Assembly: GCF_035083965.1 (NCBI RefSeq)
Contig: NC_089732.1
Location: 15,259,424-15,323,423 of the forward strand
Source: Branchiostoma lanceolatum
Lineage: Eukaryota; Chordata; Leptocardii; Amphioxiformes; Branchiostomatidae
Direction: 5' to 3'
Length of the DNA: 64,000 nucleotides
The notes under the pieces were generated by a model. The model saw only the letters and a program-made list of their open reading frames with translations, ran no database searches and was not told where the DNA came from. This document shows positions 18,508 to 63,200 of the stretch, piece after piece. Position numbers and translations under genes: made by a program. Numbering within the stretch: position 1 is the first letter of the stretch; each line of letters opens with the position of its first letter.

Positions 18508-19440
18508 TGTCTAACAAAGAGAAGGGAAAATTTTTAAGTTGAAAAAGTGACTAAATCAAGGACCATGCGTCTTAGAATTCAAAATACCTTATGTCTCTTA
18601 GGATTATATCTTATAATATTTAGTTTGAGGGTGCTTGACACCCAGTGTAAGGCAATGTTAGGAGAACCAACATATACATATACCCCGTTTAGAGATGAAG
18701 GCCTCCCCTGAGTTTGAATTTAGAACTACCTAAACACCTCACCTGGACTCATCCGAACTCACAAGGGTTTAACATGCAGTGCATAATGGGGCAAGGACCT
18801 TATGTGACACTGTGGATACATTTGCCTAATCAATCATGAATACAAAACATGTATCAAGTCTTAAGTATTTGTCAGTGTTTTTTTTTTTTAACCGGTTGGT
18901 TCTAAGATGGACGGAATCTGTGCATGCCAGATTGAATCGTCATTTATATTGTTAAGGTCTACAAGTACATGTGGAAGTTATTTAATTTCCTTTTTCTTAT
19001 TTTAACAGATGACAGGACGGTGGTTACTGTTTGGGTCATAGATAATACTATAGCACAATCTTATAACAACCTACTCATAACAACAGTTAAAGAACTGCAC
19101 AGTGTTTTTCAGCCTCAGATACAAGCATATTTTTGTTATCTTGGAAACGAGCGGAGTAATATGGACGAAAAAATTGGTAAATACTTAGGACTTGCGGCAT
19201 ATCTCTTATTCATAATTGCATAAACAATGCAACCGTTATCCAGAGCGTCACATAAATGTCTTGCCCGATGTACACTGCATATTAGACCCGGATGAATTCG
19301 GGTGAGATGTTAGGCACATCCTTTAGCACTGTGCCCCCCTCCCCCACCAACTTGAATCATCTGTAATACTGTAGTCCCAGCCCCTTGATGTGAGCACAGT
19401 CCCTCAGTTAATCATGTCTCATTCTACCTATACGCCTACC
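18508..19440 (-). other. K1 5'UTR intron
   Basis: Minus-strand intron between the first-exon donor at 19440 and the acceptor just before ACAATGG at 18510. Its 5' and 3' parts align with the corresponding introns of K2 and K3, for example the segment ending CAAAATACCTTATGTCTC. A plus-strand 84-residue frame at 18969-19223 is open but unrecognised. Confidence 0.55.
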
Positions 19441-19690
19441 TCTTCTGGGGGTGGAAGTATGACGGAAAATTGACATAAAATGAGCAAATATGATTCGAAC
19501 AAAATATGGTTCCTACCGCACCACCACACAGGTCATAGGTTGAAAGATACGGGCGCAATGCATTGTGGGTATAATATTCGACCTCATGTTTTATAATCGG
19601 GATAATATCACTGTTTGTCAGTTTATCGATGTTATACGTCGAGGTTATAAGCGGTTAACATCTGTTACCAGTTTCTGCGTTCTAGTTATT
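19437..19690 (-). promoter_or_regulatory. K1 promoter / first non-coding exon module with Staf (ZNF143) site
   Basis: Read on the minus strand, a conserved block ends CCCCCAGAAGAG followed by a donor (GTAGGC, exon end 19440). Upstream, 19554-19571 reads TACCCACAATGCATTGCG, which satisfies every position of the Staf/ZNF143 consensus YWCCCRNMATSCMYYRCR. Further upstream is the conserved word ATCGATAAACTGACAAA. The same arrangement recurs upstream of the other units. The transcription start is not defined. Confidence 0.65.
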
Positions 19691-20089
19691 TGAGATCAAA
19701 TGTTATTTCTCGCAATATTGCTATTTAAAAGATCACTTATTTCCAGTTTATCCATGTTATAATTGGAGATTACAAGTAGGTAGTGTACCCAATTTGAATA
19801 TCAAGTAGGAACACCTGTAAGTAGGAACACCTGTTATCAGTCTTCCCATTCTAGTTTCAGATAAAATGTTATTTCTTGCTATATCACACAGTTCACCCAG
19901 GAAAGGTATTATTCTGTTTACTCGCAAGAACACCACAACTAATAGATTACATATGGCTTATAGATGTTCTGCGGCAGAAAAGCATTATTCTTCGCTATCC
20001 CAGCTATTCAGCTTGTTTGTTTATCCATTAGCTACCATAGAGAGCCATAAACGCACCCTAGTGGACTAAGCTATTATATTAATATGTTT

Positions 20090-20424
20090 ATCATTATGAT
20101 TACCTTTGTTTATATTTATGTTCAGTTCATTCAATTATGTTAAACAACTTTTGGTATTGCTTCTGGGTTTCCTTGCTGTGTACATTATCTATACAATGAT
20201 TCCGTTTTAATGTTGACCTCTGACCTTTTCGCTCATTTTAAGTTCATTATGTTTGATCTTGTATGATTTACTATCTAGCAATTGTTTTCGTTCTTCCTGT
20301 ATTTGAATTAATTGTATTGTTCCTTTATTGATATTCTTGTATTTAGTTAGCCGGACTCCAGGAAGATTAGTGTATTAATTGTTATGATTGTACACTAATG
20401 GAGATCTTAAAAAAAAAAAAAAAA
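20090..20424 (+). mobile_element. Probable retroelement 3' tail with poly-A
   Basis: An AT-rich, non-coding stretch ends in about 16 adenines at 20409-20424. The tail suggests a retrotransposed 3' end, but no coding remnant is visible. Confidence 0.35.
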
Positions 20425-20484
20425 CAAGCTGTTCGGGCGAGCGGGCATCACTCCCAGCCAAAGAGATATCGGAAAGCCCCCAAT

Positions 20485-21767: not shown

Positions 21768-21900
21768 CTTATTTTTTCACCATAAAGAGTTACCCGATTC
21801 TCTTTCTGGTAAAAATAAGACTTGCAGGGGTATTTATCCATTTTTTCACCATAAAGAGTTACCCATTTCTCTTACTGGTAAAAATAAGGCTGGCAGGGGT
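21768..21900. repeat. Two-copy tandem repeat, about 70 bp
   Basis: The motif TTTTTTCACCATAAAGAG followed by a TGGTAAAAATAA segment occurs twice in succession with few changes. It lies in the 5' flank of the sushi gene. Confidence 0.7.
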
Positions 21901-24968: not shown

Positions 24969-25372
24969 GACCTCTACCAGACCACGTTTGGAGCCAGCAA
25001 CGTCACTGCGTCATGACATCAGCACTCATCGCTTTCTTATATTTGATTACTCTGATGTTAGAATTTGATTACTCTGATGTTAGAGCTTAATTCAGTCATT
25101 CACTCAACTGGTTGTATGCTACATATAGTTCAGGTGTCACTTTCGTGTGTTCTAAAAACCTTTGGATTGAATTATGTCCGAATCTGTTGTTCCGTTATAG
25201 CCAGCTAGATGAATATGAAAGAAAATAGCATTCTCTGGCATTGGTGTAGAGCTATTCTATGTCGACGATTATTTTATTTCAATCTAACTGAACCTGTAAT
25301 ACTGTAGTCCTAACCCCTTGATGTGAGCACAGTCCATCAGTTTAACATATCTCATTTCACAGATATGCTTAC

Positions 25373-25980
25373 CTCTTCTGGGGTGGAGATATGACGGAAA
25401 ATAATTAGTAGACATAAAATGAGCAAATATGGTTCGAACGAAAATATAGTTCCCGCCGCATCACCACACAGGTCGAAAAATATCATAGAAATCTGTTGTT
25501 CCTTTGTTCCGTTATTCTCCTTGGAAGATTTTCACAATAATGCCCCTGCAGTTCCAGAGCAAAATGCTAGGGGGCCCAAACCTACATTACTTCTTTATTA
25601 CATCACAAGCTGTCATCCACCCAAAAATCAAGACGTCCAGGTCAAAAGATACAAAAATTGAAGTTCTGCTGCAGTATCAAGGTCACATACCAGGGGACCC
25701 TAAATCGACCTTAAACTTCGGCTTCACAACACCTGCCCACATACCGAATATCATCGTAATCCATCAAGAGGTTCCTGAGTTATGCTGACTACAGTAGTGC
25801 GGGAACACCAACAGACAAACAAACACACACAGACACACCCAAAACAATATCTCCATTTTCATGGAGATAAATATGGGCGCAATGCATAGTGGGTTTGATT
25901 TTCGACCTCATATTTTGTAATCAGGAAAATATAAGTTTATCGATGTTTACGAAGCTTAACTTAAGAGGTGATAACAGGGT
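25373..25980 (-). promoter_or_regulatory. Orphan kelch-like promoter / first-exon module
   Basis: The block contains the conserved minus-strand first-exon end CCCCAGAAGAG with donor GTAAGC (exon end 25373). A Staf-like word AACCCACTATGCATTGCG lies at 25878-25895, and the upstream conserved segment follows. A dispersed repeat (25480-25862) sits between exon and Staf site. It points towards lower coordinates, where no kelch-like coding exon remains until K1, beyond K1's own module. Confidence 0.55.
25480..25862. repeat. Dispersed repeat ending CTCCATTTTCATGGAGATAA
   Basis: The same family occurs at about 39695-41085 (several units) and 58900-59575, with part at 53700-53990. Shared landmarks are GGGGCCC/GGGGCC segments, CCACATACC.AATATCAT and the small terminal palindrome CTCCATTTTCATGGAG. 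No coding capacity. Confidence 0.6.
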
Positions 25981-26834
25981 AGTATATACGTAACAAGTTA
26001 GAATTCGTAGTGCGAACATCTGTAACCAGTTTCTGCGTTCAAGTTTAACACCAAATGTTTTTTCTAGCAATATTGCTGTTCAAAAATATCACTTTTTTTC
26101 CAGTTTATTCATGTTATACTTGGAGACGACAGTCTGAATTATTTACCAAGTAGGGACACCTGTAAGTAGGGACGTATGATATTCGTTCCCATTCTAGTTT
26201 TAGATTAAATGGTATTTTTTGCAATGTTATACAGTTCAGCCAGGAAAGGTATTATCCTATTTACTGTTAAGAACACCATAACTGATAGATGATATACGGC
26301 TTACACAGGTTCTGCAGTAGATGAGCGTTAGGAGCTATTTAGCCTGTATGTTTATTCATTTCAAAGAACTAATGCGTGAAATGGATGCTTGCTTCAATCA
26401 ACTGGGCATGATCACAGACCAAAGTTCATGTTGAGCCTTGCCTGGTTGGAAGCTATGTAGGGCACATTAACTGTACAAATTGTCTTCACTGACTGGAATG
26501 CATGTTTGTGTATTCTTTTTCATCTTTATTGATTTCTGTATTATTCTATTGATGATATATGCATAGTAAGCCCAGAGTGTAATCAAATATTGGTCTTAGA
26601 TTTCTTTCCTTTTAACATAAGCAGTTAGAAGTTCTATTTCTATACTGGCCCTATTCCCAGTCAGCTTATGAACATCAACAAAGCCCTTTCACCAAAACAC
26701 TGTCATATATGTAAAAATTACTAAAGTAACAACTATTTCTTCCTTCCGATCAGAACACAATTCTCATTGAGCCACTACACCTTTCTTTTACAAGGCATAT
26801 ACATTTGTATCTTGGGAAATGTACCCATCAAGGA

Positions 26835-27000
26835 GGTCCTTAAAATACTCTTGGTCCACATTTGGGAAATGAATACACCCCAACTGCTCCTTGAGATGAC
26901 TCTGACGTTACTTAAGATCATCATGTCTTATCCAAAGTATAATCACTTGCAAGGCTCCAACACTCACATGAAGGCCATTATCTAAGATGTATGTCTTCAG
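26835..27000 (-). pseudogene. Kelch-like gene relic (BACK-domain fragment)
   Basis: About 165 bp align by eye with the BACK-coding part of K2 (28380-28560), including the words CTCCTTGAGATGACT and ATGAAGGCCAT, but with frame-breaking changes. It lies in the 3' flank of K2 within sequence otherwise shared with the 3' flank of K3. Confidence 0.7.
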
Positions 27001-27356
27001 AAGGTACAATAAGTAATGTAATCAAGTTCTGAGGACAAGAAACTTACTAGTACAAGTAGAATGTTCTACCGCATTGTCACTGCAGACAGATCCTTTATAC
27101 ATTCTGTCAGCAATGCTCATATATGGTTTGTTGGTAGAATGAGAATTGAATATTTTAGCAACCACAGTCAATAAACAACTTGAACATAGAAAGAAACCAT
27201 TGGACCCGTGGGCTAACTGTGACAAGGACATTTTCTTTTTTCAATTGAGGGCTGGATACACTTATATATCAAAATGGCACATGCTACCCTTAACATCCTA
27301 GCCTGCAATTTTTTTTACTTCAAATCTACTACTGTGACATCTGGAGTTAACAGATC

Positions 27357-29117
27357 CTATTTACCAGCTTGTGATTTTGGTATTGTTACACTGATGTGAT
27401 CCCATATTGGAACTGGTAATTCCTTCATCATAATCATGGTATCACTGGTTACATTGTAACACTGGACTGTAGCAAGTGGAATCTCATCATTATCATCAGG
27501 TTCAATGAGTGAAGGCCTTCTGTCAAGGCCACCGGTGATGTAGACCTCCGAGCCACACACAGTGGCACCGCAGTCAGCCCATGAGGCTAGACGATCAGTC
27601 ATTTTCTCATAGCAGTCTTCCTGAGGATCATAGCACAGAACATGGGCTAACTCTCCACCAACCAGATATATCTTAGAGTTAACTATAGATGCTATGATAC
27701 TATCCACTGGATTTGGCAACGGTGCAGCAAAAGTCCACACATTTTGAGTAGGGTCGTAACATTGAACAGCATTAGTGTTGTGACTGTTGTCAAATGGCCA
27801 AAGGGTACACTTTCCAGTTTTCCCACCAAATACGAAGACTTTTTCACAACAGCTAGCTATGCCAAAATCCCTGACTCCCTCTTGCAAGGGTGCTACCAGA
27901 TTCCAACTGTCTGTCATTTCACTGTACACCTCAACATCAGGTAGTGTATACAAGGCAATACCACCAACTACATACATCTTTCCATGCAAAACTGTCATCC
28001 CATGATAAAATCTGTCTTTGTTAAGGGATCCCAGTTGAGTCCAAGAATTCAGAGATGGTTTGTACTGCCATGCCCATGCTTTAGATTCATTAGTTACACC
28101 ACCTGTTACAACTACATCATTATCAACAACACATGCTGCATATGAATAGCATGTCACAAGAGATTCTGGCAAGGGGCACAGGTCAACACAATCACAGTTG
28201 AGGTCAAGTGTGTATATAGAACATGAATCAATGTGGTCATCCCTTCGTTCATCTGATACTGTGTTACCACCAATAACCAGAACTTCCTGCTGCTGAATAT
28301 GACGAGGTCTTGCATGTCTGGATTGGTCCTTTATCAGTCCCTTGAGTCCGGAAACTCCTGCCAACACCTTGTCTGACTCCATGATGTCCTTGAGATAGCC
28401 TGGGTCCACATGTGAGAAACGAAGACATTCCAGCAGCTCCTTGAGATGACTTTGACGTTCCTCAAGATCATGTCTTACCCACAGCATGATCATCTCTAAC
28501 ACTCGTTCTTCTTTCTTAGCATGAAGGCCATCATCTGAGATATACGTCTTCAGAAAGTTCAGGGGTAGCTCAAGGAACTCTTCCGTTAAGCACACTTCTT
28601 CAAAATGTTTTAGAGCGAAGAGCTTTGCCCTGTTACACAAACGTTTACGTAACACCTTGTCCGCCAATGCCCAAGTTCCCAAACATGACTCAGGGCTCAA
28701 ATTGTCTGTCAGAAAATCTTCACATAACTCTTCAACAGGCTTAACCTGAAACATGTTGGCTGCTTCATACAGCGGCTGAATATTATTGCTGGTGATGGTG
28801 ACATTGGCTGTGTAGGCATAGTCCACCATTAGTTGTAGTGCCTCTGCACTCACCCCTCCTATCTCTATCTTGTCCTTCTTACTCTCGCTGTGGCCTCCAC
28901 GGAACATGGCATGGAAGTAGTCAGAGCAGGCGGACAGAACTAGTCTGTGACAGGGGATCTCCTTCTCTTCAGTAAACAGAGTCACGTCAAACAGGTGACC
29001 CTCGGTCCTGAACTCCTGTAACCGCTGCCATTACTGGGCTGGATACCAGCCAGAGTCATCGCACTCAATACTGTTGTTCACCGTCTCATTGTTGTCTTCA
29101 GAATGATTGTCGTCCAT
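27357..29117 (-). pseudogene. Kelch-like K2 with a premature stop at codon 29
   Basis: From the paralogous ATG at 29117 the frame runs 587 codons to the stop at 27357, interrupted only by TAA at 29031-29033 (codon 29). K3 reads PAQLWQRLQEF there; K2 reads PAQ-stop-WQRLQEF, a single T-to-A change in TTA. The rest is a complete BTB-BACK-Kelch protein: DVTLFTEEKEIPCHRLVL, NIQPLYEAANMFQ, and blades VLVIGG, NDVVVTGG, KMYVVGG, KVFVFGG, KIYLVGG and EVYITGG. An acceptor (GTTAG) lies just before ACAATGG. No in-frame ATG rescues the BTB N-terminus. Its 5' intron carries a LINE and a MITE, and its promoter module has lost the Staf motif. Confidence 0.8.
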
Positions 29118-29394
29118 TGTCTAACGAAGAAAAAGGAAACGTTTGGAACTGAAAAGGTTGCAAAGTGCAAAAATCAAGGACCATGTGTCTGACCAACCTC
29201 CTTGGTCTGACACAATTCAAAATACCTTATGTCTCATTATAATTCTATATTTGATATTGATAATACTCAATTTTAGGTACCTGGACAAAGCTAGCCTCAG
29301 TGAGTGCTTGACACCCATTGAAAGGAGATACAATGGGACCAACAAATATCTATTTTTCATGCCCCGCTCAGAAACCCTACCCTGAGTTAGAAAT

Positions 29395-30074: not shown

Positions 30075-32759
30075 TCAGGTGTGTGTATTCAATAGATGTG
30101 TAAAGTATGGAATGGGACTGTTTTTATAGCGATTTGTTTTTGTCAAAGGGATACAAAGTTGGTGGGCGCCTTTTAGATTTCTAGCGTGGATGTCCGATCG
30201 GGTTGGGGGTAACCAACTCCTGAAGGTAGGATTTCGAAGTAAGGATTTGGCAAACCGAAGGCTAAGGTTTTTCCTCCTGTTTTCCAAGGAGGGGAGACAT
30301 AAAAGTGTTAGGGCTTCGTTATAAGATATATATTGGGGGCCGAGGATAATTCTCAGGGCTCGTTTTTGTATTCTCTCGACCTTCATGGATTGTTGTGCAG
30401 TGATACTAGGGCTCCAGACTGGTGCGGCGTATTCTAAAGTGGGCCGAATGTACCCTTGGTAAAATTCGAGAAGATCTTGTATGGGTAGTCCAAAACGTTT
30501 TAATTTCTTTAGCCAAAAAAGTCGTGAGCTTGCCTTTTGTGTAATGATGTCAACATGTTTTCCCCAACTTAGGTCATGAGAGAACCATAGGCCAAGTATG
30601 CGTGCTGTTTCAGTGTATTCCAGGGACGTATTATTAAGTGAAATTTCGGGGGGTAGGGGGCAGTCTCTCATAAACGAAATCATCAATAACTTGCATTTTT
30701 CACCGTGAAGTATCATGTCATTTTTTGAGGCCCAGCTATTCAATTTATCGAGGGATGTTTGTATAAGACTGGGTTGATAGAACATTCTACTTTCACAAAC
30801 TGATAAATCGTCGACAAATTTATAACGGTCTAAAACGTCTTCGCTGAGGGCATCATTTATATAAATCAAAAAAAGGATGGGGCCTAATTTTGTCCCCTGG
30901 GGGACGCCGCACGAAATATCTTTCCAACTTGAGGTCATGCCATTGTAGCGGACGCACTGTAAACGGTTGCTGAGAAAATTGCAGAGCCATGGCAAAATTG
31001 AAGTGCGCACGCCGTATTGTAGCATTTTATTTATTAGAGTGGTATGGTTGATTCTGTCGAAGGCTTTACTAAAATCTGTCAAGAGGATTGTTTGGATACT
31101 TTTAGGGGTTTCGGCACCGAGGAGGATCGAATTCACCAAAGCAGTTAAGTAGTGGACGGTGGAAATTCTTTTCCTACAACCAAACTGGTTGGGGTCCAGT
31201 ACATTGGCCACGTCCTGGAGAACCCATTTCGTGACAAACGATTCAAATACTTTGATGAGAACTGAGGTTAGAGAGATGGGCCGTAGATTATCAAGTGAGG
31301 TTGGCGACTTTTTAGGAACCGGAGTGATGACTGCCTGTTTCCATTGTTTTGGAATGTAGCCTTCCTCTAAAGAGGAGTTGAAAATATGAGTGAGGACATC
31401 GCTAAATTCGGCCGCATACTGTTTGACAATTCTAGGGGGCAAGTTGTCTGGACCGTTGCTTTTATTAGGGTTGAGGCGTCTTAACGTTTCATAGACCTCC
31501 CATGGAAATATACGTGGTGGCCTAGAAGGAGATGGTAGGTATGAGGGTAAGGAGGCAAGATCTAAACGGGGCAATTCGTTCACTATTGATGAGAAGTGAC
31601 TATTGACTAGCTCAGCAATGTCTTCGTCATGTAAGTGGGCGTTGTCTGGGAGACGAATGGAAACAGATGATCTACCTGAATTTAGGATCTTACGCAAACT
31701 ATGGTGCAATTTAGCTGGGTTATCTTTCTTTAGCGATTTAACTCTGGAGACATAATGGCGTTTTTTAGCCTTTGAACATAGACGAATTACCCGATTTCTG
31801 ATATTTTTGTACAAGACCATGTTTCCTGACTGAAAGGCTTTTTGTCGTCTTCTAATTGCAGACTTGATCTGCGGGGTCATCCATGCTTTGTCACTGTTAT
31901 GTTTGGTAAACGTTTTGTAAGGGAAGTGATGGTCAATTTTTGTTTGTAGAATATCGTATAAGTTGTCAACTTTAGTTTGAGTATCTGGGGCGTCCAGGAC
32001 TTCAGTCCATAGGTGGCATGAAATCCATTGTCCAAAAGAGCGTATATTAGAATCTCTCATCTGCCGAAAAGTCACTTTAGATGTAATGTTGGTGGGTCTG
32101 TGATCTACGGGATACCATAACACAGTGTTATGATCGCTCTGACCTAGGGGCTCTTCAATATGTGGGTTTTGGTAGGATGACTTTAAATTAGTAATTATTA
32201 GGTCGAGTACTGCTTCTCCTCTGGTGGGGTGTTTGACGACTTGGTTTAGCTTGCTTCCATGAAGAATGGGTGAGATTTCGAACCTGTTAAAATCTCCCAT
32301 GATGCATATTCCCCCGTGCGGATGTTTGGTGTTAATCTTGTCAATACTATTGAGAAGATGATCACCTAACATATCCTGGTACTGATTATTTGGGGGGTTA
32401 TAAACAACACAGATAGCTAGGTTTGTAATGTGCCTTGGTGTCCAGTGTGGTTTAAGTAGAATCCAGAGGCACTCAAGCTCAGTAGGAGTTACTATAAAAT
32501 CAATAATTTCGGCGGGTATATTCTCACGTACATAAATAGCGATACCTCCGCCGCGGCTGCCTAAGCGGCAGCGGGAAAAGAGTGTGTAACCTTCTATATT
32601 CGTACATTCTACGGGATGGCTAGGCGTAAACCATGTTTCTGCTACAACTCCTATATCAATATTATGGCCGGTCATACAGTCGGACAAATCATCGAGCTTA
32701 TTTACAAGGGAACGTGCATTACAGAGTAAAAACGATGGTAAGGATTTGACCTGTTTCGC
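30075..32759 (-). CDS. LINE ORF2: endonuclease and reverse transcriptase
   Basis: Residue numbers count from the TTG at 32687; the frame is open further upstream (CNARSLVNKLDD) and no ATG is obvious. The N-terminal part is an apurinic-type endonuclease with AETWF, GSRGGGIAIYV, IMGDFN and SDHN (about residue 184). The reverse transcriptase follows: LRPISL, LTDFSKAFDRI, GVPQGTKLGP and the catalytic FVDD (about 620), the variant usual in CR1-like elements in place of YADD. The C-terminal thumb-like region ends near residue 860. It nicks target DNA and copies the element's RNA. ORF2 begins directly at the ORF1 stop (GCG at 32759 shares a base with the TAG) in another frame, so it probably depends on reinitiation or frameshift. 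Confidence 0.9.
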   Translation of the reverse strand, partial: AKQVKSLPSFLLCNARSLVNKLDDLSDCMTGHNIDIGVVAETWFTPSHPVECTNIEGYTLFSRCRLGSRGGGIAIYVRENIPAEIIDFIVTPTELECLWILLKPHWTPRHITNLAICVVYNPPNNQYQDMLGDHLLNSIDKINTKHPHGGICIMGDFNRFEISPILHGSKLNQVVKHPTRGEAVLDLIITNLKSSYQNPHIEEPLGQSDHNTVLWYPVDHRPTNITSKVTFRQMRDSNIRSFGQWISCHLWTEVLDAPDTQTKVDNLYDILQTKIDHHFPYKTFTKHNSDKAWMTPQIKSAIRRRQKAFQSGNMVLYKNIRNRVIRLCSKAKKRHYVSRVKSLKKDNPAKLHHSLRKILNSGRSSVSIRLPDNAHLHDEDIAELVNSHFSSIVNELPRLDLASLPSYLPSPSRPPRIFPWEVYETLRRLNPNKSNGPDNLPPRIVKQYAAEFSDVLTHIFNSSLEEGYIPKQWKQAVITPVPKKSPTSLDNLRPISLTSVLIKVFESFVTKWVLQDVANVLDPNQFGCRKRISTVHYLTALVNSILLGAETPKSIQTILLTDFSKAFDRINHTTLINKMLQYGVRTSILPWLCNFLSNRLQCVRYNGMTSSWKDISCGVPQGTKLGPILFLIYINDALSEDVLDRYKFVDDLSVCESRMFYQPSLIQTSLDKLNSWASKNDMILHGEKCKLLMISFMRDCPLPPEISLNNTSLEYTETARILGLWFSHDLSWGKHVDIITQKASSRLFWLKKLKRFGLPIQDLLEFYQGYIRPTLEYAAPVWSPSITAQQSMKVERIQKRALRIILGPQYISYNEALTLLCLPSLENRRKNLSLRFAKSLLRNPTFRSWLPPTRSDIHARNLKGAHQLCIPLTKTNRYKNSPIPYFTHLLNTHT

Positions 32760-34027: not shown

Positions 34028-34232
34028 ATAAAGCCCGACAAAAACGCCTAAAAACTTGTTGTTGTTGTTAAAAACACGTCAAAAACCAGCCGGATCTCTG
34101 CTTGGAGAGTAAGAAATTGTGCCCCCCTCCCCCCACATGGATTTCCAACTTGACCGCTCGTTTATAGTTCCAACCCCTTGATGTGAGCACAGTCCATCAG
34201 TTCAATATGTCTTATTCTACAGATATGCTTAC

Positions 34233-35580
34233 CTCTTCTTGGGATGGAAGTATGACGGAAAATAGACATAACTAGAGTTCCACGACCTCATACCTTCGCC
34301 AAATGATTTTAACCTTTATGACTGACGTATTAGGAGTGTTTCTCATCAGTACTAAATCATACCAGTTGATTGTCGTAAAATATAACATGTCCGAAGTATC
34401 AGCTTAACGAATTATGAGCCTACGGTTATGCTAATATTTATCATCAATTATGCAAAAGAGGCCCTTATTAACATGATTTGATTCAACGATGTGAACATTC
34501 ACATAACTTCCCAATGCCACAAAAAAGTATTAAATGTATGAAATTGCCGTCATTTGCCAGTGTGGAATAATACTGTTACTCATGTAGTATGCAAATGAGG
34601 CCCACATTTGCATATTTTCTATCTATTAACAGTCCTCTCTTTCTCAGTTACAATTTGAATAGTCATATCATGGGACAAAGCGGATTTTTAAAGTTGCCTT
34701 ATCAATTATGCAAATTAGCATCTGATTTGCATAATTATTGTCCAATCATGCTAAGCATCACACAAGCTATCCACATACCAAAAATGATGACCATCCATCA
34801 AGGCCATCTTGTTATAGTATTTTCTCATTAATTATGCAAATGAGGTCTTCATTTGCATAGTTCATATCAATTAATATTTCTCTCTTCCTCAGTTACATAT
34901 GTCAAATGTTTCAGAGTCCTATCATGGAATTTGGCGGAAGTATAAATTTTCCTCATTGATTATGCAAATTAGATACTGATTAGCATAAGAAGTATCTAAT
35001 CATGGACATCATCACTCAAGCTATCTACCTACCAAAAATCATTACCATCCATCAAGCCCTTTTTGAGTTATTCCCTTTCAAAGTCAGACGCAAAACCTGC
35101 TCCTGCAGTTCCAAAAAAGCCGCTAGGGGGCCCAAACCCACACCACTTACTCTCTGTCCAAAGATCTATCTACCACTCAAAAATAAGTTCCATAGCATGT
35201 CCGGAACACGAGTTATCAAAACAGGAAGTTCCGCTGCAGTACCGTAAGAAGCTGCTAGGGGGCCCAAAATCTAATCGTTTTTAGGTCTCATCAAAACCTA
35301 CCAACATACCAAATATCAAAACAATCCATCAAGGCATTCTCGAGTTATCCTGTGCCACTACAAACAAACAAACAGACAGACAGACAGACAGACAAACGCT
35401 ACCGTCTGCATAACCTTCTCGGCGAAGGTAAAAATTTCCGAAATATGGCTACTGACGCGTCGCACCACCAGAAAGGTCACAGGTCGCGGACTTTGACCTC
35501 ACAATTTGGTTAATTTATAATCAGGAAAGTATCACTTTTTGTCAGTTTATCGATTTCAACTTGGAAACGGCAAGAGGGTA
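34233..35580 (-). promoter_or_regulatory. K2 promoter / first-exon module, Staf site lost
   Basis: The conserved first-exon end CCCAAGAAGAG with donor GTAAGC (exon end 34233) is present. Upstream conserved blocks (ACGCGTCAGTAGCCA, then AAACTGACAAAAAGTGATA) lie at about 35447-35555, displaced by a repeat at 34273-35435. Where K3 has CACAATGCATTGCG, K2 jumps from GTCGCGGAC straight to TTTGACC, a deletion of about 22 bp that removes the motif. Confidence 0.65.
34273..35435. repeat. Dispersed repeat with TACCTTCGCC/GGCGAAGGTA ends
   Basis: Starts AGAGTTCCACGACCTCATAC and ends near GGCGAAGGTA; the 10-bp end motifs are inverted. The inside has alternating segments with many TTATGCAAAT words and a (CAGA)n run at about 35360-35395. 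Other copies: 41600-41760 (5' part) and 63506 to the window end. It sits inside the K2 promoter module; K3 and K1 lack an insertion at that point. Confidence 0.65.
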
Positions 35581-36724: not shown

Positions 36725-38467
36725 TCATAGTTTTGGTACTGTTACACTGATATGACAATAGAGTGGAAGAGGCAAATTGTTAACCATTATCATGGTATTG
36801 CTGCTTGCATTGTAACACTGGACTGTAGCAAGTGGAACCTTATCATCAATATCATGGCGTGGTAAGTCATAGCCACCAGTAATGTAGATCTCAGAACCAC
36901 ACACAGTGGCACTACAATAATGCCACGAGGCTAGTCGACCAGTCATTTTCTCATAGCAATTTTCCTGAGGACTATAACACAGGACATGGGCCAACTCTCC
37001 AACAACCAAATAGATTTTAGAGTTGATTGTGCAAGCGTTTATGTCTCTCGTTGAGTGTGGCAAAGGCGTTGCAAAAGTCCACATATCCTGAGTGGGGTCA
37101 TAGCACTGAACAACAGCAGTATTTTCCTTGAGGTTTATCCTACCACCAAGCACATAGATTTTTTCACAACATGTAGTTATGCCAAATTCACAGACTTTCT
37201 GTTTCAGTGGTGCCACCAACTCCCAATTGTCGATCACTTCGCAGTACACCTCTACATGAGGATGACTTGAACTTCTATGATAACCTCTACGACCACCAAC
37301 AACATACACCTCTTCCCGCAAAACTGCCATCCCATGATAACATCTTTCTCTATTGAGGGAATCCAGCTCAGTCCAAGAATGTAGAGATGGTTTGTATTGC
37401 CAGGCATTTTTGCCAGAACTGATACCCCCTGTTACAATGACATCATTATCAACAACACATGCTGCATATCCTGCAGTTTCCTTTACAGATTCTGGCACCA
37501 GAGAAATGTTAACACAATCACCGTTCAAGTCAAGTCTGTAAATGTCCGGATTATCTCCAACATGAATCAGAAGGTTGCCATCCAAGTCATATTTTGATGG
37601 TGCAGTACCACCTAGAACCAGAATTTCCTCCTTCTGAATGTGGCGTGGTCCAACATGTCTAGATTGGCCATGGTCCTTTAGCTTTATCAGTTCCTTGATC
37701 CCAGAAACTCCTGCCAACACCTTGTCTGTCTCCGTTATGTTCTTAAGATAGTCTGGGTTCACTTGTGAGAAACGAACACACTCCAGCAGCTCCTTGAGGT
37801 GTCTTTGCCGCTGTCTTAGATCATGTCTTGACCAAACCAAGATCACCTTCACCACTTGTTCTTCTTTCTTAGCATAAAGACCATCACCTGAGATGTATGT
37901 CTTCAAAACGTCCACAGGTAGCTCAAGGAACTCTTCTGTTGAGCAAACGTCTTCAAAGTGTTTTAGAGCATAGAGCTTTGCCTTCTCAAACAAACGTTGA
38001 CATGATACCTTGTCCGCCAATGCCCAGGTTCCCAAGCATGTCTCAGGCCTTAAGTTATCCGTCAGAAACTTCTCACATCCATTTTCAACAGGCTTGACCT
38101 GCAGCATGTTGGCTGCTTCATACAGCGGCTGGACATTATCAGTGGTGACGGTGACTTTGGATGTGTAGGCATAGTCCACCAGCAGTTGTAGTGCCTCTGC
38201 ACTCACCCCTCCTATCTCTATCTTGTCCTTCTTACTCTCGCTGTGTGCACCACTAAACATGGCATGGAAGTAGTCGGAGCAGGCGGACAGAACCAGTCTG
38301 TGACAGGGGATCTCCTTCCCTTCTGCACACAGAGTCACGTCCACCAGGTGACCCTCGGTCCTGAACTCCTGTAACCGCTGCCATAACTGGGCAGGATACC
38401 AGCCAGAGTCATACTCCAGACTGTTGTTCACTGTCTCATTGTTGTCTTCAGAATGATTGTCGTCCAT
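36725..38467 (-). CDS. Kelch-like protein K3 (BTB-BACK-Kelch), intact
   Basis: 580 residues from the ATG at 38467, directly after a 3' splice site (..GTTAG then ACAATGG). BTB spans about residues 35-135 (DVTLCAEGKEIPCHRLVL, DYFHAMFSG, NVQPLYEAANMLQ) and BACK about 140-245. Six kelch blades are visible as ILVLGG, NDVIVTGG, EVYVVGG, KIYVLGG, KIYLVVGE (blade 5, second Gly replaced) and EIYITGG. Family knowledge predicts a CUL3 adaptor that presents an unknown substrate for ubiquitination. This is the only member of the array with an intact ATG, frame and stop plus a promoter module keeping its Staf-like site, so it is the best candidate for a working gene. It is closest to K2. Confidence 0.9.
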   Translation of the reverse strand: MDDNHSEDNNETVNNSLEYDSGWYPAQLWQRLQEFRTEGHLVDVTLCAEGKEIPCHRLVLSACSDYFHAMFSGAHSESKKDKIEIGGVSAEALQLLVDYAYTSKVTVTTDNVQPLYEAANMLQVKPVENGCEKFLTDNLRPETCLGTWALADKVSCQRLFEKAKLYALKHFEDVCSTEEFLELPVDVLKTYISGDGLYAKKEEQVVKVILVWSRHDLRQRQRHLKELLECVRFSQVNPDYLKNITETDKVLAGVSGIKELIKLKDHGQSRHVGPRHIQKEEILVLGGTAPSKYDLDGNLLIHVGDNPDIYRLDLNGDCVNISLVPESVKETAGYAACVVDNDVIVTGGISSGKNAWQYKPSLHSWTELDSLNRERCYHGMAVLREEVYVVGGRRGYHRSSSHPHVEVYCEVIDNWELVAPLKQKVCEFGITTCCEKIYVLGGRINLKENTAVVQCYDPTQDMWTFATPLPHSTRDINACTINSKIYLVVGELAHVLCYSPQENCYEKMTGRLASWHYCSATVCGSEIYITGGYDLPRHDIDDKVPLATVQCYNASSNTMIMVNNLPLPLYCHISVTVPKL

Positions 38468-38561
38468 TGTCTAACGGAGAAAAAGGAAACGTTTGGAACT
38501 TAAAAAGTTGCAAGGTGCAAAAGTCAAATACCATGTGTCTCATAATTCAAAATACCTTATG

Positions 38562-41157: not shown

Positions 41158-41291
41158 AAATGACAGCCACCCCACCCCCGGCCCCCTCCCCCACATGGAT
41201 GTCCAACTTGACTGCTCGTTTAATAGTCCTAGCCCCTTGATGTGAGCACAGTCCGTCAGTTTAACATGTCTCATCCTACAGATATGCTTAC

Positions 41292-41525
41292 CTCTTCTGG
41301 GGGTGGAAGTATGACGGAAAACTAGCGAAAAATGGGGAAATGTGGCTACTGACGCGTCGCACCACCAGAAAGGTCACAGGTCGCGGACGCAATGCATTGT
41401 GGATTTAAACTTTGACCTAACAAATTGGTTAATTGAAAATCAGGAAAGTATCACTTTTTGTCAGTTTATCGATGTAATACTTGGAAATGCCTAGAGGGTA
41501 ATGTACATGTAGTTTGGATACAAAG
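41292..41525 (-). promoter_or_regulatory. K3 promoter / first-exon module with Staf-like site
   Basis: Minus-strand first exon ends CCCCCAGAAGAG with donor GTAAGC (exon end 41292). AATCCACAATGCATTGCG at 41388-41405 fits the Staf consensus except at two positions. AGGTCACAGGTCG-type half-sites lie beside it (41371-41384) and the conserved ATCGATAAACTGACAAA block upstream. Confidence 0.65.
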
Positions 41526-43823: not shown

Positions 43824-45607
43824 TTAGAAGCTTACACTTACAGTTTTGGTATAGTTACACTGATGTGCCTCCACATTTGGAACGGGTAAATCTAGAACCC
43901 TGATCATTGTATTACTGTTCACATTGTAACACTGACCGTCACGGGAACCATCACTAAGAGCATCCTTCTCATCCTCTTTGCCACCAGTTATGAAGATCTC
44001 AGACCCACACACTGTAGCACTACATAGCTCCCATTCAAACAATTGTTCAGCCATTTCCTCGTAGACATCTTTCTGGGGATCATAACACAGGACATGCTCC
44101 AACTCGCCACCAACCAAATAGACCTTAGAGTTAACTGTGCAAGCTGTTATGTCTCTCGTTGAATGTGGCAAAGGTGCTGCAAAATTCCACACATTCAGAG
44201 TAGGGTCATAACACTGAACAACATCAGTTTTTTCACTGCGACCAATCTCACCACCAAACACATAGATCTTTTCACAACAGGCGGTTATGCCAAAACTGCT
44301 GACTGCCTGTCGAAGTGGCGCGACCTCGTCCCAACTGTCTGTCGCCACATCATACACCTCTGTCTGCTCTCTGAATAACATACGGGGTAACAGCAGCCTC
44401 CAATCATGCCCCATATCCTTAACACCACCAATAACGTACACCTTTCCCTAAAGCACTGCCATCCCATGATCATATCTTTCTGTCCTGAGGAATCTCAGCC
44501 TAGTAGAAGAGTTATGAGATGCCCTGCACCTCCATACTTGAGACGAATACTTCTTCCCCCCTGTCACAATTACATCGTTGTTAACAACACATGCAGCGGA
44601 TCCTTCGTTGTCACCAAGGGACCGTGGTAGTGAAGTAATGTCTACACAGCAGCATTGGACGTCAAGTCTGTATATGCAATTGTTTGGTTTGGAATACTCC
44701 CCATCTTCATCTTTTGTGACACCACCAAGAAGCAGAATTTCTCCTTGAAAAAGTTTACAAGTTCTTGGCTGCACAGATTGATTCTTTATCAGTTCCTTGA
44801 TTCCAGGAACTCCTGCCAACACCTTGTCTGTCTCCATGATGTCTTTGAGATGGTCTTGATCCACATGTGAGAAACGAACAAACTCCAGCAGCTCCTTGAG
44901 ATGTGTTTCTCGTTCCTCAAGATCATGTCTTGCCCAAAGCATGATTGCCTCTATCACTTGTTCCTCCTTCTCAGCATGAAGGTCATTGTCGGATATGTAT
45001 GTCCTTAGAAATTCCACAGGTAGATCAAGGAAATTTTCATTCACACACACTTTATCAAAAAATGTCAAGGCAAAATTTTTTGCCATCGCAGACAAATTTT
45101 TATTTGATACTTTGTCTGCCAATTCCCAAGATGCCAAACATGTGTCAGGCCTCAAGCGGTCTGTCAGGAACTCTTCACAACTCTCTTCAACAGCCTCAAA
45201 CTGCAGCATGTTGGCTGCTTCATACAGTGACTGGACATTTTCAATGCTGACTGTGTATTTAGGAGTGTAAGCAATGTCCACGAGCTTCTCTAGTGTCTCT
45301 CCACTCACCCCTCCTATCTCTATCTTGTCCTTCTTGCTCTCACTATGGCCTCCACGGAACATGGCGTGGAAGTAGTCGGAGCAGGCGGACAGAACCAGTT
45401 TGTGACAGGGGATCTCCTTCCCTTCAGCACACAGAGTCACGTCCACCAGGTGACCCTCGGACCTGAACTCTCGTAGCCGCTCAAGGAACCAGGCTGGATA
45501 TTCATCAGTGTCATCACACTCATGGCTATTGTACACTGTCCCATTTTCGTCCACTGTCACACTGACTTCTGTGGTCTGACTGTCGTTCACTGGCTGATTG
45601 GTGTCCA
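43824..45607 (-). pseudogene. Kelch-like K4 with one nonsense codon in the kelch domain
   Basis: From the paralogous ATG at 45607 (an in-frame ATG also exists at 45641, before the likely acceptor CCATCAG) the frame runs to 43824, broken only by TAG at 44448-44450. K1 reads GMAVLQGKVYVVGG; K4 reads GMAVL-stop-GKVYVIGG, so CAG became TAG. BTB (DVTLCAEGKEIPCHKLVL, NVQSLYEAANMLQ) and BACK are complete, and the stop falls in the third blade. A truncated product would keep BTB and BACK but not a closed propeller. The promoter module is eroded at the Staf site. It is closest to K1. Confidence 0.8.
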
Positions 45608-45787
45608 TTGTCTGATGGAAAGGAAGGAAAATTGTTGACATTCAATAATTGCAGTTTAGAATATACAACAGTAGTGCAAAGCCTATCATACCAAAATCAA
45701 CAACCATGTGCCTCATTATTAATAACACTTAAGATTATATTTGATAAGACCAAAGCGAAAGACAGAATAATTCTGTGAAGGAAGTGG

Positions 45788-47184: not shown

Positions 47185-48015
47185 CTGGCCGGTCCCGACT
47201 AGCTTTTGGGGGGAGAGGGGTTGAGTCAGGGGAACAACATACACCTAATCTTTATTTACAGCATTGGTTATTTCTATTCGTTACCCCTAAAAGAGCCACG
47301 ATATAAATTCTTATCAAGTCGAACTATAGCACCGGAAAAAACTAGCTCGTTTCCCTGTGCTTACTACTCAGACACTTGGTAAACTCTGTAAACTCAGACT
47401 CTGTAAAGGTATGAGTACACAGTATTTCGCCGCGACCCCCGGAGTCTGTGACGTAGGGGTAAGAAAATAGTGCGCCCTAAATCTTGAACCGTATGTAAAA
47501 TCGTTGAAGTGAATGCCAGCGAGGCGCAAACTTTACTGTATGGTAGTATAATAAGTGGGCTTTTAGATCGTAGGAATGAGATTGTGCAATTTTCCCATTC
47601 GGCGTATAAATGCGCGTGACATTTGCAGCTGCCTGCCGAGGTAAGTCGGCTTCACTTCCACATGACCCCGCATGACCCCATATCAAAGTGGCCGTCAAAT
47701 TGTTAAAAAACCATAACTTTTTTTGGTTTTCAGTTTTTTTGTAGATAGTACCCTCGACTTCAACATATTCGTTTGTCTTGATTTTGTAGGGTACCCTAAT
47801 ATGATTTTATCCACGTCGATGTGGATCACTTTGTGGTCCTTAACTATAGAAACCCCCATAGGCCGAAAACTGTGTTCTGCTACCTAAACACTGTTGGTTA
47901 CTGCGCCCCCCTCCCCACGTGCATTTTTAACGTCATCACTGAATGTTAGTCGCATTCTCTTACTCTGTAATGTGTGCACTGTGTATGTCATCAATTACCA
48001 ATGGAGCATTAGACA
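47185..48015. other. K4 5' intron remainder
   Basis: No gene recognised. The segment near 47900-47925 (GCGCCCCCCTCCCC) matches the flank of the K2 and K1 modules. Confidence 0.4.
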
Positions 48016-48024
48016 TATACTTAC

Positions 48025-48215
48025 CTCTTCTGGGGATGGGAATACCACCGAATAAGACGAGCAAAATGTGGTCGAAATGTTATAGTTATCGCCACAAAGG
48101 TCAAAGGTTGACACATTGCAGGTTTGACCTACGACCGCATATTTTCTGTACAAATAGTTTCACTTTACGTTAGTTCATCGATGTTAACTCTAAGATTACC
48201 ACTGGGTAGTGAACC
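48025..48215 (-). promoter_or_regulatory. K4 promoter / first-exon module, Staf site eroded
   Basis: First exon ends ATCCCCAGAAGAG with donor GTAAGT (exon end 48025). Upstream AAGGTCAAAGGTTGACA and the CATCGATG..TAAC block are kept, but the Staf position reads only ACATTGCAGG. The left half and centre of the motif are deleted relative to K1 and K3. Confidence 0.6.
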
Positions 48216-49940
48216 AAGTTTGATTAACAAATGATAAAATATGGTATATGTTTCAAGTATTCTATTGTCAAATTAATGTTATTTCTTAAAATGTAACGGG
48301 GGGTGCCCAACCATCGGACGTTTTTTTACGCGCTGGAACTCACGGCGCTCCATTGCTGGTTGCCAGAGAGTGGTCAGGTTTTAATGAATGAATTTTGAAC
48401 ACATTCATCTAAAGACCATACTTGGACAAGAAATGTATTCATACTGTTCATGGGCCCTTCATGCTCCGCGTTACATGCGGAAGACGCTGTGAGACATTTT
48501 CACGAATGTACCTTCTGATTTAGTGCTACGCCAGATAGTGTGCCTAACTTAGTACGCTTTGGTAATTTTGCTCTCTTCGGAAGTTGGTGATGAAGTTAGG
48601 GAAATGTAAATAAGGCTTGAAGTCTGCTATATTCTAGCTTTCTTTTGACCGGAAAATTTTGACTGTGTGCACTTCTAACGTCATGTGAGAAGGGCTATAT
48701 CTAGCGCATCCCAGCTCATGTTCCCACGGGAAATAGGCTACTACGCGGCCCGACGTACGTATTGAATGCGGCCCGACTTACGAAATCATTACGAAAAAAC
48801 GACACCGCTTACATCAACAATACTCCGTCTACTTATTGGGAAACATCTTCGCCATCTGTGTATTCAGTTTCCTTTTCATAGACGGTACCAATCACATGTT
48901 AGAGCGTAACAAAGCTGTGCGTTGAATCGTCCCGCCACCATCGCGGTCCAAAAAAATGGCGGGAAAACAACGTCGTCAGACGACAGCAATGTTTACGTTG
49001 TTTTTCTTTGGTCGGTTTTCTTCTCAACAAACACTTAAAGACCCAAATTTTTAGTGTTTTATGAAATTATTTTTCTTATGTGTATGATAGCTGTGTGACT
49101 TATGTATCTGCTTGGCACAGGTCGTATATTTAGGTGCCGGGCCGTCTAGCTACGCAGTGACCCTCTACTCAGCGTTGCCATCATTATTGTCAAAATACTA
49201 CTTTTCGACAAAACAAGAAATGAATATGTACACATATGTTTTGAATGTAAATGACAATTATGTGCATGAACTTGGGTTATTTACCTTCCTTATCAGCATA
49301 GTCATTGGACACAAACACGGCGTACTTATGCAAAATAAGATCAGTAAAAAATCCGTGCGATGTTCGGGCGCGTGCGAGGTTCGGGCGGCCCCCGTTACTG
49401 TAATGGAAGGTAATTTTAATCAACAACTTGTTGATGGTAATTATATGATTTGTTATGTTGTAGGTAATTATAACCATAACGAATTACATTTTGTAGTTTG
49501 TTGATCTACAGTATTACAGAATACTTGCTGTAAATGACTGACACAATCAATTGATTAAACAAGACTCATTTATATAACAGTCCACTTCAATTTTTTTAAC
49601 CAACCTTTATTTACAAATGAGATTTACATTCACATGATAACTACATCACCTATAACAAGCAGTAATCATATCAAACTTCTCAACATGCATTCAATTTCAA
49701 ACTGTATAACAATTTTTCCGTTGTTTGTATCATACTTATACTTGCAAATTGTAAACTTTCCAAGCAATAACAATACGTCAATATTATGATATTTTTTTTT
49801 CAATTCTTCAAAGTTTATGATCAAGAATTATATATTGCACGGATAATGATTATTCACTTCTATGATTTATCCATTAAGGTTTTTCTACTTCTAACCATAT
49901 TGGTTTTAAAATATCACAATAATAGAAAAAGTGTTGTTGG
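48216..49940. other. Non-coding stretch, contents unassigned
   Basis: A 130-residue plus-strand frame (49112-49504) has no recognisable domain. The part from about 49560 on is AT-rich. No repeats tie it to other parts of the window. Confidence 0.4.
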
Positions 49941-49944
49941 GGGT

Positions 49945-50110
49945 GTCACCCATTGCCTAACAAAGAAAACATTTTAAACTGCACAAGGTAACGTGCCATG
50001 TTCCTCGAATGAAATACATGACTGATGTCTCTTGTGATTATATTTGATGATACTCAATTTGAGGAACCTGGACAAAGCTCAGCCTGAGTTGCTTGACGGT
50101 TACGGAGAAT
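49945..50110 (-). pseudogene. Ghost of a kelch-like unit (start region and 5' intron only)
   Basis: CCCATTGCCTAACAAAGAAAA at 49950 corresponds to the start-codon/acceptor segment of K1-K3. It is followed by the shared intron words TTTGATGATACTCAATTT and GAGGAACCTGGACAAAGCT. The coding exon expected below 49950 is absent. Confidence 0.6.
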
Positions 50111-50354
50111 GCTGGACTGTCTTCCTGGCCTCACTGCGGCCTACCATAGTCTGTTCACCCTTGGCAAATGAAGTATTCCTACCCGTCAAATGCCGCCGCG
50201 TTTCCAAGCTTACGTTACGCTCGTTTTTGAAATTCAATGTTTGGTGTCAAATTTGTAAACTTCTTTCCGATCCAGCTCCAAAACTTCTACTTGGATACAA
50301 GTACCAGGTGTCCCTAACTTGGTAATCAAACATCTCAGGCTAACTTGAGGTAAA

Positions 50355-50603
50355 ACGTCGACAAGCTGACTACAGTGATGTTATTTTGAAAATGAGGTTA
50401 CGAGTTCAAAGGTTAAAGGCCACAGCAACAATGCACTGCGCGTATCTGTGACCTCGACTTGTGGTTTGGCGCGTGTCTTTATTTTGTCAGTTTTATTTCC
50501 CTTCTCGGTTGAATTTCCAGTTATGGAAGATTTTCGTGCACGTGTACCGGTACACAGAATGTTGCGCAAGTGGTCCAACAAGTCTCTCCAGTCCCAGAAA
50601 AGT
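50355..50603 (+). promoter_or_regulatory. Plus-strand promoter module and possible coding first exon of K5
   Basis: Plus-strand counterpart of the K1-K4 modules: ACGTCGACAAGCTGAC, then CAGCAACAATGCACTGCG (50423-50440; ATGCACTGCG core kept). A likely first exon ends TCCCAGAAAAGT with donor GTAAGTA at 50604. From ATG 50523 a frame of 27 codons runs to the donor in phase 0 and could join K5's exon at 59741 without a stop. The 9.1 kb intron this implies is inference. Confidence 0.45.
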
Positions 50604-50689
50604 GTAAGTATGTTCATGATACTGTCTGTTTACATATTACTGATTTTGTTCATGCAACCTCCTTGGTTCATGTCAGGGAGAGACTAAAG

Positions 50690-59070: not shown

Positions 59071-59138
<68 letters not shown>

Positions 59139-59575: not shown

Positions 59576-59740
59576 TTTAAGTTCCCAGAATGCCAGATAT
59601 TTAGTTATTATTCTATCTATTTCTTTGTACTAAGTAGTCAAATATATTTTGAAGAAATGTGGGCCACAATTTCCTTGACTTTACGATTTCCAAAACTGAA
59701 ACTGTATTTCATCAATGACTGTTTTTCTTCTGTTTGCAGG

Positions 59741-61452
59741 TGACAGGTGACAGTCAGATAGAGGAGATCATCCTTGAGTGTAATGAAAGTTGGGTATACC
59801 CAAGGTTGTTTATGGATCAGTTAATGGCGTTAAGGTCTGAGGGTCACCTGGTGGACGTGACCCTGTGTGCTGAAGGGAAGGAGATCTCCTGTCACAGACT
59901 GGTCCTGTCGGTTTGCTCTGACTACTTCCACGCCATGTTCCGTGGAGGCCACAGCGAGAGTAAGAAGGACAAGATAGAGATAGGCGGAGTGAGTGCAGAG
60001 GCACTACAGCTGCTGGTGGACTATGCATACACAGCCAAAGTCACCATCACCAACATTGCTATTCAGCCTTTGTTTGAAGCAGCCAACATGCTGCAGTTTA
60101 GATCAGTCGAAGATATATGTGAAGATTTTCTGACAAAGCACTTAAGCCCTAAAACATGTTTGGTAACTTGGGCATTGGCAGACAAGGTGTCATGTAAAGG
60201 GTTGTTAGGGAAAGCCAAGAGCCATGCTCTGAAAAACTTTGAAGACGTATGCACAACAGATGACTTCCTTGCTCTACCCGTAGACTTTCTGAAGACGTAC
60301 ATCTCAGATGATGGCCTTCATGCTAAGAAAGAAGAACTAATCTTGGAGGCGATCATACTTTGGGCAAGACATGATCTTAAGGAACGTCAAAGTCACCTCA
60401 AAGTTCTGCTGGAGTGTGTTCGCTTCTCACTTGTGGACCAAGACTATCTGAAGAACATCATGGAGAGGGACAAGGAGTTAATGCTGTTAGCAGGAGTTGA
60501 GGAACTCTCAAAAGATCAATCTACACCAGGAAGACCTCGCCAGATTCACCAAGAAGAAATTCTTGTTCTAGGTGGTCGCACACTGTCAACACAAGGAGAT
60601 AAGTTTAAGCGTAATCGTAATATGTACAGGCTTGGCCCCCACTGTGATTGTACTGCTATTACTCCGCTGCCAGAAATCCTTCAAGTAAGCAGGAAATTTG
60701 CAGCATGTGTTGTTAACAATGATGTGATTGTAACAGGGGGGGACATAATTGAGTCTGAATTTGAAGCATGGAGGTACAAACCATCTCTGAATTCTTGGAC
60801 TGAGCTAGGGTCCCTCGTTAGAGGAAGATATGATCATGGGATGGCAGTGCTGCAGGGACAGGTTTATGTCGTCGGTGGTCGGTACGATGATGATGATATC
60901 GTAGGTCTTCCTGACGTTGAGTTGTACAATGAAGGGAACAACAGTTGGAACGAGGTAGCACCACTGCAACAGGGAGTTTGTGAGTTTGGCATAACGACCA
61001 GTGGTGACAAAATCTATGTGTTCGGTGGTAGGATCAGTCACACTGAAAAAACTGCTTTTTGTCAGTGCTATGACCCCACTTCGGATCTGTGGACTTTTGT
61101 AACACCATTGCCAAAGTCAATGTTTGACATAAAAGCTTGTACAGTTAACTCTAAGATATATCTGGTTGGTGGACAGTTAGCCCATGTCCTGTGTTATGAT
61201 CCTCAGAAAGACTGCTTGGTGGAAATGACTCGTCCACTAACTGCGTGGTGTAAAAGTGGAGCAACTGTGTGTGGCTCTGAGATCTACATCACTGGTGGCT
61301 GTGGTGAACGATTCAGAACAACAAAAGATATCATTGCCACAGTTCAGTGTTACAATGTGAGCAGTAATACCATGATTATGGTTAAAAACTTGCCTCTTCC
61401 ACTACTGGGACATATCACTTTAACAGTGCAAAAACCACAGTCTTGTAAATAG
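59741..61452 (+). CDS. Kelch-like protein K5 (BTB-BACK-Kelch), start codon lost or in an upstream exon
   Basis: An uninterrupted frame of about 570 codons follows a strong 3' splice site (TTCTGTTTGCAG, 59728-59739). BTB (DVTLCAEGKEISCHRLVL, DYFHAMFRGG), BACK and kelch blades ILVLGG, NDVIVTGG, QVYVVGG, KIYVFGG, KIYLVGG and EIYITGG are complete. K1-K4 have ACAATGGACGAC-like sequence after the acceptor; K5 reads ACAGGTGACAGTCAG, with no ATG. The first ATG in frame is 59812 (27th codon from 59734), just before the BTB core. An upstream coding exon at 50523-50603 would join in frame. Opposite strand to K1-K4. Likely role: CUL3 adaptor, substrate unknown. Confidence 0.82.
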
Positions 61453-63040
61453 GGACGTATCTGAAATAGCTCTGTTTGAGCAAGATGTCCCTGGCATTTT
61501 GCAGCCATAGATGTTAAAAAAGTTTTTTCCTTTTGAGATGTGAATGCATTCCTCACCAAATTGAAAACAAAAAAAATGTTCTTGTCACATATATAACCCA
61601 TAGGACTAGATTATGGTCTCTTTTATAATAGACATATGTATTCAAGCTGTTTACCTTGTAACAAATAGGGCTGTGGGGTGTTTGGTATCTTAGCCCCTAT
61701 CTTAGCCATATATGAACTCAGCCTAACAGTCCGATTGCTATCTGTGAGTCTTGCATTTATTGATCCATATAATACTCAACACTAACATATACAGGTCTAG
61801 GGTAATATGCTGAGGATGCAATGTACATATAGATAGATGTTAGTAGGTATATCAGGTCTAGGGTTACAGCACAGGGTCTATATGGAACTAAGTGTTATGG
61901 ATAATTATGCATATAACAAACTACTGAAGATCATGTATGTTACAACGTTATTAATCTTGGATATCAAAAGATTTGACATTTTTACCAACAAACCAGATCT
62001 GAGTATTTCTAATAGAATATAGGAGGAGATTAGATACATTGACAATGTAAGAGAACATTGTAATTTACTTGTATTAAGAACTCTAGTACATTCCTTACCC
62101 AATTAAACTTTCTTGCTGGGTACCTTTCCTAAGATACATAATAAATGTTAAAGAAGGTGAAATGGCTTAAAGAGAATTTTGTATACTAGATAAGGAGGGA
62201 GTGGTTATTCGTTAAAGTTTTAAATCTAGCAGTGTTCTGGTGATAAGGCTTTTATAATGTCCATTAACTGATTAGATATGGGACCAGTTACCTTATAGTA
62301 TAGTAGTAATTGTAGTTGCTTGTGTTAAAAAGGGAGAAATCTAAGAGTTATTTTTGATAACATTTTAATAGAGTGAACCATGTACATTGCATTACTAGTA
62401 ACACAAAGATCAATCAAGCTAAAGATGAACACAGACATGCATTCCAGACAGTCATTAACTGATTTGATATACTTAGTGTTTACTGTTACTGTTAACCTTT
62501 ACTGTTTCTATTGTTAACTGTTACTGTTTGTTTTATTACTGTTACTGTTTGTTTTATTACCTTTACAGTTGATATTGTTTACTGTTACTGTTTAGCTTTT
62601 TTGACTGTTGCTGTGCTATACATTAAAGCTGAAAGTGACAAGACAAGGCTCAAACTGAACTGGGCTTTGGCCTGTGAAAATGAGTTCTAAGTAATTGACC
62701 AATTGTCAGGCATCTATTGATGCAAGTATTTTGAATAAACTAACAAGGTCAAGACTCAAATTCATCTGAGCGGTACATTTCAATTACTGATTCATAGATC
62801 AATAAATGGTGATGGCTAATCCTTGGAAATATTTTACGAGAAGCTAACAAATCAATTATTAAAGACTAATTATTATCAATTGCAGATTTTCTTCCTTAAG
62901 CCCTGCTCAAGTTATAGATTATATCGTCCAGGTCTTTTTGGGGGAAATGTTTCAATAAACATCACCCGGTTCTCTTAAAAAATCTTAGTCCAATACTTGT
63001 AGAAACCGGTAAGAGTTGGTACTGACTGTGTAATCAAATC
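61453..63040. other. 3' flank of K5, no gene seen
   Basis: AT-rich. TTACTGTT-type short tandem words occur at 62475-62600. An AATAAACTAAC word at 62731 could be a distal polyadenylation signal, but nothing decides it. Confidence 0.45.
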
Positions 63041-63045
63041 AGCTA

Positions 63046-63200
63046 ATTTGAGGTAGAACGTCGATAAGCTGACAAAAAGTGATATTTTTCGAGTAATAAG
63101 GTTAGGAGTTCAAAGGTGAAGTCACGTCCACAATGCACTGCGCATTTCTGTGACCTGTTTGACGCTTGGGTCTTTGTTGTCCGCTTTCTTCCTATTTTCA
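63046..63200 (+). promoter_or_regulatory. Plus-strand promoter module for a gene beyond the window
   Basis: Matches the 50.36 kb module: GAGGTAGAACGTCGATAAGC, AGTTCAAAGGTGAAGTCACG, then CGTCCACAATGCACTGCG (63125-63142) and TCTGTGACCT. No kelch-like coding exon follows before 64000. Confidence 0.5.

Follow-up and report, generated by a model that had tools for sequence, protein, structure and literature searches.

The 64-kb stretch of DNA analysed here (the window) contains five genes with a BTB-BACK-Kelch body, each in one exon, and seven copies of a putative promoter, and it raises the question of whether loss of a Staf/ZNF143-like site from a promoter copy goes with decay of the gene behind it. 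The presence of a LINE and the splicing of the kelch genes make an animal the probable source, conceivably a lancelet-like one. A first-pass annotation had proposed that it does, with K2 and K4 as the two genes that lost the motif and carry nonsense codons. We consider it probable that the locus is a birth-and-death tandem array whose members share a promoter with a conserved, probably ZNF143-type site; the data give no support for more than chance in the coincidence seen in K2 and K4. One promoter and a short first exon would have been copied by descent into the seven modules along with the kelch-like genes, and loss of blocks, first exons or reading frames would strike individual copies separately, the usual course of birth-and-death evolution. 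The core ATGCA(T/C)TGCG, which adjoins a conserved GACCT half-site and a RTCGAYRARCTRAC block, would be a functional transcription-factor site upstream of the first exon, most likely of the ZNF143/Staf type. The duplicated cassette of putative promoter plus first exon, with its Staf/ZNF143-like site, has good support as a sequence feature and deserves to be recorded; the causal claim lacks support.

The seven modules reported at 19.44, 25.37, 34.2-35.6, 41.29 and 48.03 kb (minus strand) and at 50.36 and 63.05 kb (plus strand) proved to be homologous by BLASTN and alignment of these seven places (Table 1), the K4 module being the weakest relative, with BLASTN pieces of 38-60 bp. The M50 module is inferred to belong to K5 from one feature, a matching splice phase across 9.1 kb, and is called the K5 module below. 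The blocks described as common to all seven are less uniform than that. GACCT is present in 7 of 7 modules, while exact copies of the core ATGCA(T/C)TGCG are found in five (K1, M25, K3, K5 and M63), of CCAGAAGAGGTA in four (K1, M25, K3 and K4, with variants in K2 and K5), and of ATCGATAAACTGAC in three (K1, K2 and K3; K4, K5 and M63 carry a relaxed version of it, and the M25 version is truncated). A first exon with a donor, also attributed to every module, could be placed in six. M63 has no recognisable first exon; compared with the K5 first exon, it matched in TCTGTGACCT and nowhere else, a score equalled by 32 of 300 shuffles, and it had no GTRAG donor within the 381 bp inspected. The four modules aligned for this purpose (K1, M25, K2 and K3) have an identical GGACTGTGCTCACATCAAGGGG near the start of intron 1, and part of it is retained in the K4 module. 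An Rfam search at a loose threshold gave no match on 41150-41330, which covers the K3 copy of this region. Across the window, a search for RNA genes gave no Rfam match, and ARAGORN under the bacterial code found no tRNA.

Table 1. Features of the kelch-like array, in positions of the window. Stop codons in K1, K2 and K4 are counted from the exon-2 ATG.
Feature	Position	Strand	Description
K1 exon 2	16752..18510	minus	open body frame without usable ATG; frame from conserved ATG stops after 17 codons
BTB part of K1 exon 2	18510-18150	minus	candidate gene-conversion tract, with K3
K1 module	19430..19640	minus	block A; 18/18 Staf-like site 19554-19571; first-exon donor after 19440
M25 module	25363..25950	minus	core 25878-25887; donor after 25373
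Repeat in M25 module	25490-25855		about 370 bp
Kelch-like relic	26791-27021	minus	BACK pieces in two fragments
K2 exon 2	27357..29120	minus	stop at codon 29
LINE in K2 intron 1	30075-34078	minus	same direction as K2
K2 module	34223..35555	minus	core gone by 22-bp deletion; donor after 34233
Element in K2 module	34291-35430		1140 bp; perfect 10-bp inverted ends
K3 exon 2	36725..38470	minus	intact; 580 aa from exon-2 ATG
BTB part of K3 exon 2	38470-38110	minus	candidate gene-conversion tract, with K1
K3 module	41282..41480	minus	16/18 site 41388-41405; donor after 41292
Region of GGACTGTGCTCACATCAAGGGG	19330-19440, 25270-25373, 34130-34233, 41190-41292	minus	just inside intron 1
K4 exon 2	43824..45611	minus	stop at codon 387; frame change near C-terminus
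K4 module	48015..48190	minus	eroded site, 12/18; donor after 48025
M50 module	50350..50612	plus	16/18 site 50423-50440; first exon with ATG; donor after 50603
TTCCCAGAATGC	59582-59599	plus	15/18 to Staf consensus
K5 exon 2	59740..61452	plus	open; 597 aa spliced in silico to M50 first exon, 9.1-kb intron
M63 module	63050..63160	plus	16/18 site 63125-63142; GACCT; no recognisable first exon

The core occurs in the window more often than expected. Exact AATGCAYTGCG has 4 occurrences, where 200 first-order Markov simulations averaged 0.07 and reached 2 at most. The 18-position SBS consensus, quoted as YWCCCRNMATSCMYYRCR in passages of PMC5006282, gave 8 matches with no more than 2 mismatches where 2.85 were expected, and 0 of 100 shuffles reached 8; five of these matches lie inside modules, and the 3 elsewhere are at about the background level. 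At no more than 3 mismatches there was no enrichment of the 18-mer, with 22 found against 26.2 expected and 83 of 100 shuffles reaching 22. In an alignment of K1, K3, K5 and M63, which leaves out K2, K4 and M25, CAATGCA(T/C)TGCG is the best-kept 12-mer, with a mean pairwise identity of 0.944 compared with 0.488 over 366 windows, one window that ranked above it having been set aside as a gap artefact. With K4 added, the core ranks under the RTCGAYRARCTRAC block, the adjoining AGTGATA block and GACCT. Modules that have the core thus keep it well, in support of a function, yet other blocks survive in more copies. A further match to the consensus, TTCCCAGAATGC, lies about 140 bp before K5 exon 2, and a match of that quality is expected by chance.

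As had been reported, the K1 module meets the Staf consensus at 18 of 18 positions, and it is the sole full match; M25, K3, K5 and M63 match at 16, the K4 site is eroded to 12, and that of K2 is deleted. In this agreement, and in the distance from site to first-exon donor (96 bases in K3, 114 in K1 and 163 in K5), the array resembles the ZNF143/Staf SBS of vertebrate promoters; in M25, where a repeat splits the module, the distance is 505 bases. SBS positions 3-6 (CCCR), described as critical for ZNF143 binding in passages of PMC3936768, are kept in K1 and M25 and depart from the consensus once in K3, once in M63 and twice in K5, so that the call of a site as present or absent is soft. The array sites are also unlike the composite ZNF143/THAP11 motif (M4), of which the ACTACA module is the THAP11 part according to passages of PMC5006282, in that neither ACTACA nor ACTAYR was found in the 40 bp preceding each of the five 18-mers (M25, K1, K3, K5 and M63). 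The sequence ACTATG does occur inside the 18-mer of M25 itself. ZNF143 is a good candidate binder of the core, and we put its chances at about even. Some other factor may bind there, the likeness of the K1 site to that of ZNF143 being partly fortuitous, and most of the work may be done by the ATCGATAA block and the GACCT half-sites, which we take to be of nuclear-receptor type. The presence of GACCT in every module, the deviations at positions 3-6, the missing ACTACA/ACTAYR and the lack of enrichment at 3 mismatches are all consistent with this, but the full match in K1, the 16 of 18 positions in four more modules and the ranking of the core among its four carriers make it the more doubtful reading.

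The kelch-like bodies were then compared for the state of their reading frames. BTB, BACK and Kelch domains scored above the Pfam cut-offs in four of the five genes; in K4 the scan covered the part before the stop, where it found BTB and BACK, and the 3' part of the gene can be aligned with the kelch part of K1. These domains are those of the BTB-BACK-Kelch (KLHL) genes, and the closest solved relatives of K3 include KBTBD2, KLHL22, KEAP1 and KLHL3; the differences noted from KLHL genes are the coding body in one exon and a dN/dS of about 0.4 among paralogues. A pattern search for relatives of the K3 protein gave 0 matches in viral contigs and 9 in genome contigs, none of which was confirmed as a relative. 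Splicing in silico at the module donor and the acceptor gave open frames for K3 and K5. The nonsense codons described in K2 and K4 are both there, but the damage is not limited to these two genes. Translation from the exon-2 ATG ends after 28 aa in K2, after 386 aa in K4, and after only 17 aa in K1. There the conserved ATG and the long body are in different frames, and the break falls at an 18-bp tandem repeat. The 400 bp before the K1 donor contain 6 ATGs, none of which reaches the body frame of K1 when spliced in silico (longest product 65 aa), and neither does any of the 10 ATGs in the 400 bp before the M25 donor when spliced to K1 exon 2 (longest 67 aa). With frame lesions in K1, K2 and K4, the damaged genes number three of five, not two.

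Coding constraint was similar throughout the array, with dN/dS between 0.37 and 0.48 in all 10 gene pairs. Six lineage comparisons found no relaxed constraint in K2 (against K3) or K4 (against K1), with p values of 0.23-0.86 and the low power that five genes allow, and the terminal branches of the gene tree are alike (K1 0.142, K2 0.161, K3 0.141 and K4 0.140). Within this low power, the results suggest recent or still unfixed lesions, and the order of site loss and frame loss cannot be read from the data. Equal constraint is also what would be seen if the lesions were assembly errors or minor alleles and no gene of the array were truly dead. There is one lesion each in K1 and K2 and two in K4, in frames that are otherwise open, and the K1 lesion sits at a tandem repeat; nevertheless, this explanation needs five separate changes, the K2 deletion included, and we consider it improbable.

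Both site losses were borne out by the alignment. Compared with K3, the K2 module lacks exactly 22 bp, and the missing stretch holds the core; the K4 site has eroded. K2 and K4 are therefore the two genes without the core, and both have a stop inside the BTB-kelch body, as would be expected if loss of the Staf/ZNF143 site had silenced them and coding decay had come afterwards. The claim that site loss tracks coding decay is nonetheless not supported, since K1, which carries the best site, is itself broken, and site loss is thus not reliably tied to broken genes. With K1 scored as intact, as it had been earlier (two of five genes damaged), the one-sided Fisher test gives p = 0.10, the lowest value that five genes allow here; with K1 damaged, so that the site is lost in two of three damaged genes, it gives p = 0.30, and once M25 is entered as a site that has no gene, p = 0.40. 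A coincidence of site loss and stop codons beyond chance is not supported. M25 retains the core, and the interval from its module to that of K1 yielded no kelch-like coding region. A profile of the five proteins, run over 2,833 stop-to-stop fragments of 15 aa or longer at E values up to 1, recovered only the five genes and one relic, between K2 and the 25.4 kb module, and the idea of a gene hidden behind M25 was rejected. Together with the unrelaxed constraint in K2 and K4, these results make silencing by site loss an unlikely account of the array.

The K2 module is also disrupted in other ways. It is split by an element with inverted ends, parts of which recur at 63.5-64.0 kb and 41.6-41.8 kb, and intron 1 of K2 contains a LINE whose two ORFs, measured from stop to stop, span 930 and 439 aa. 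RVT_1 and endonuclease domains were found in ORF2 and a GDSL match below the cut-off in ORF1, a domain make-up that is presumably that of CR1-type elements. With this insertion and the intronic LINE, the 22-bp deletion is not the sole candidate cause of any silencing of K2. The M25 module is likewise split, by a repeat with relatives elsewhere in the window whose borders were judged by eye. The exceptions posed by K1 and M25 would disappear if the K1 break came from an assembly error or a minor allele and M25 served K1 as an alternative first exon, and the whole array could then be wired to one inherited ZNF143-type switch, with the state of the site marking the live copies; of the readings considered here, we give this one the least credence.

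The birth-and-death array that we favour has a parallel in the mouse olfactory receptors, which, in passages of PMC3247239, form tandem arrays with common promoter motifs and both intact and broken members, as does this tandemly duplicated kelch family. The present case differs from that one in comprising five kelch-like genes in 64 kb, known from sequence alone, and the passages of PMC3247239 contain no comparison of motif state with pseudogene state. A literature search, with most subscription journals outside it, found no paper that deals with this array or with ZNF143 sites in an array of this kind. The modules form a natural series of one putative promoter, from full consensus through slightly changed and eroded to deleted, with some copies split by insertions, and since they stand beside genes of known frame state, expression data could show which goes first in a gene array, the promoter or the coding region. 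The array is also a warning against inferring cause from two losses that coincide.

Two minor features of the array were also observed. The K4 and 50.36 kb modules lie head to head and diverge, approximately 2.3 kb apart (48025-50431). In the comparison of K1 with K3, the synonymous difference is 0.24 in alignment columns 0-120 and 0.44-0.55 in the windows from column 120, suggesting that the BTB part of exon 2 may have undergone gene conversion between these two genes.
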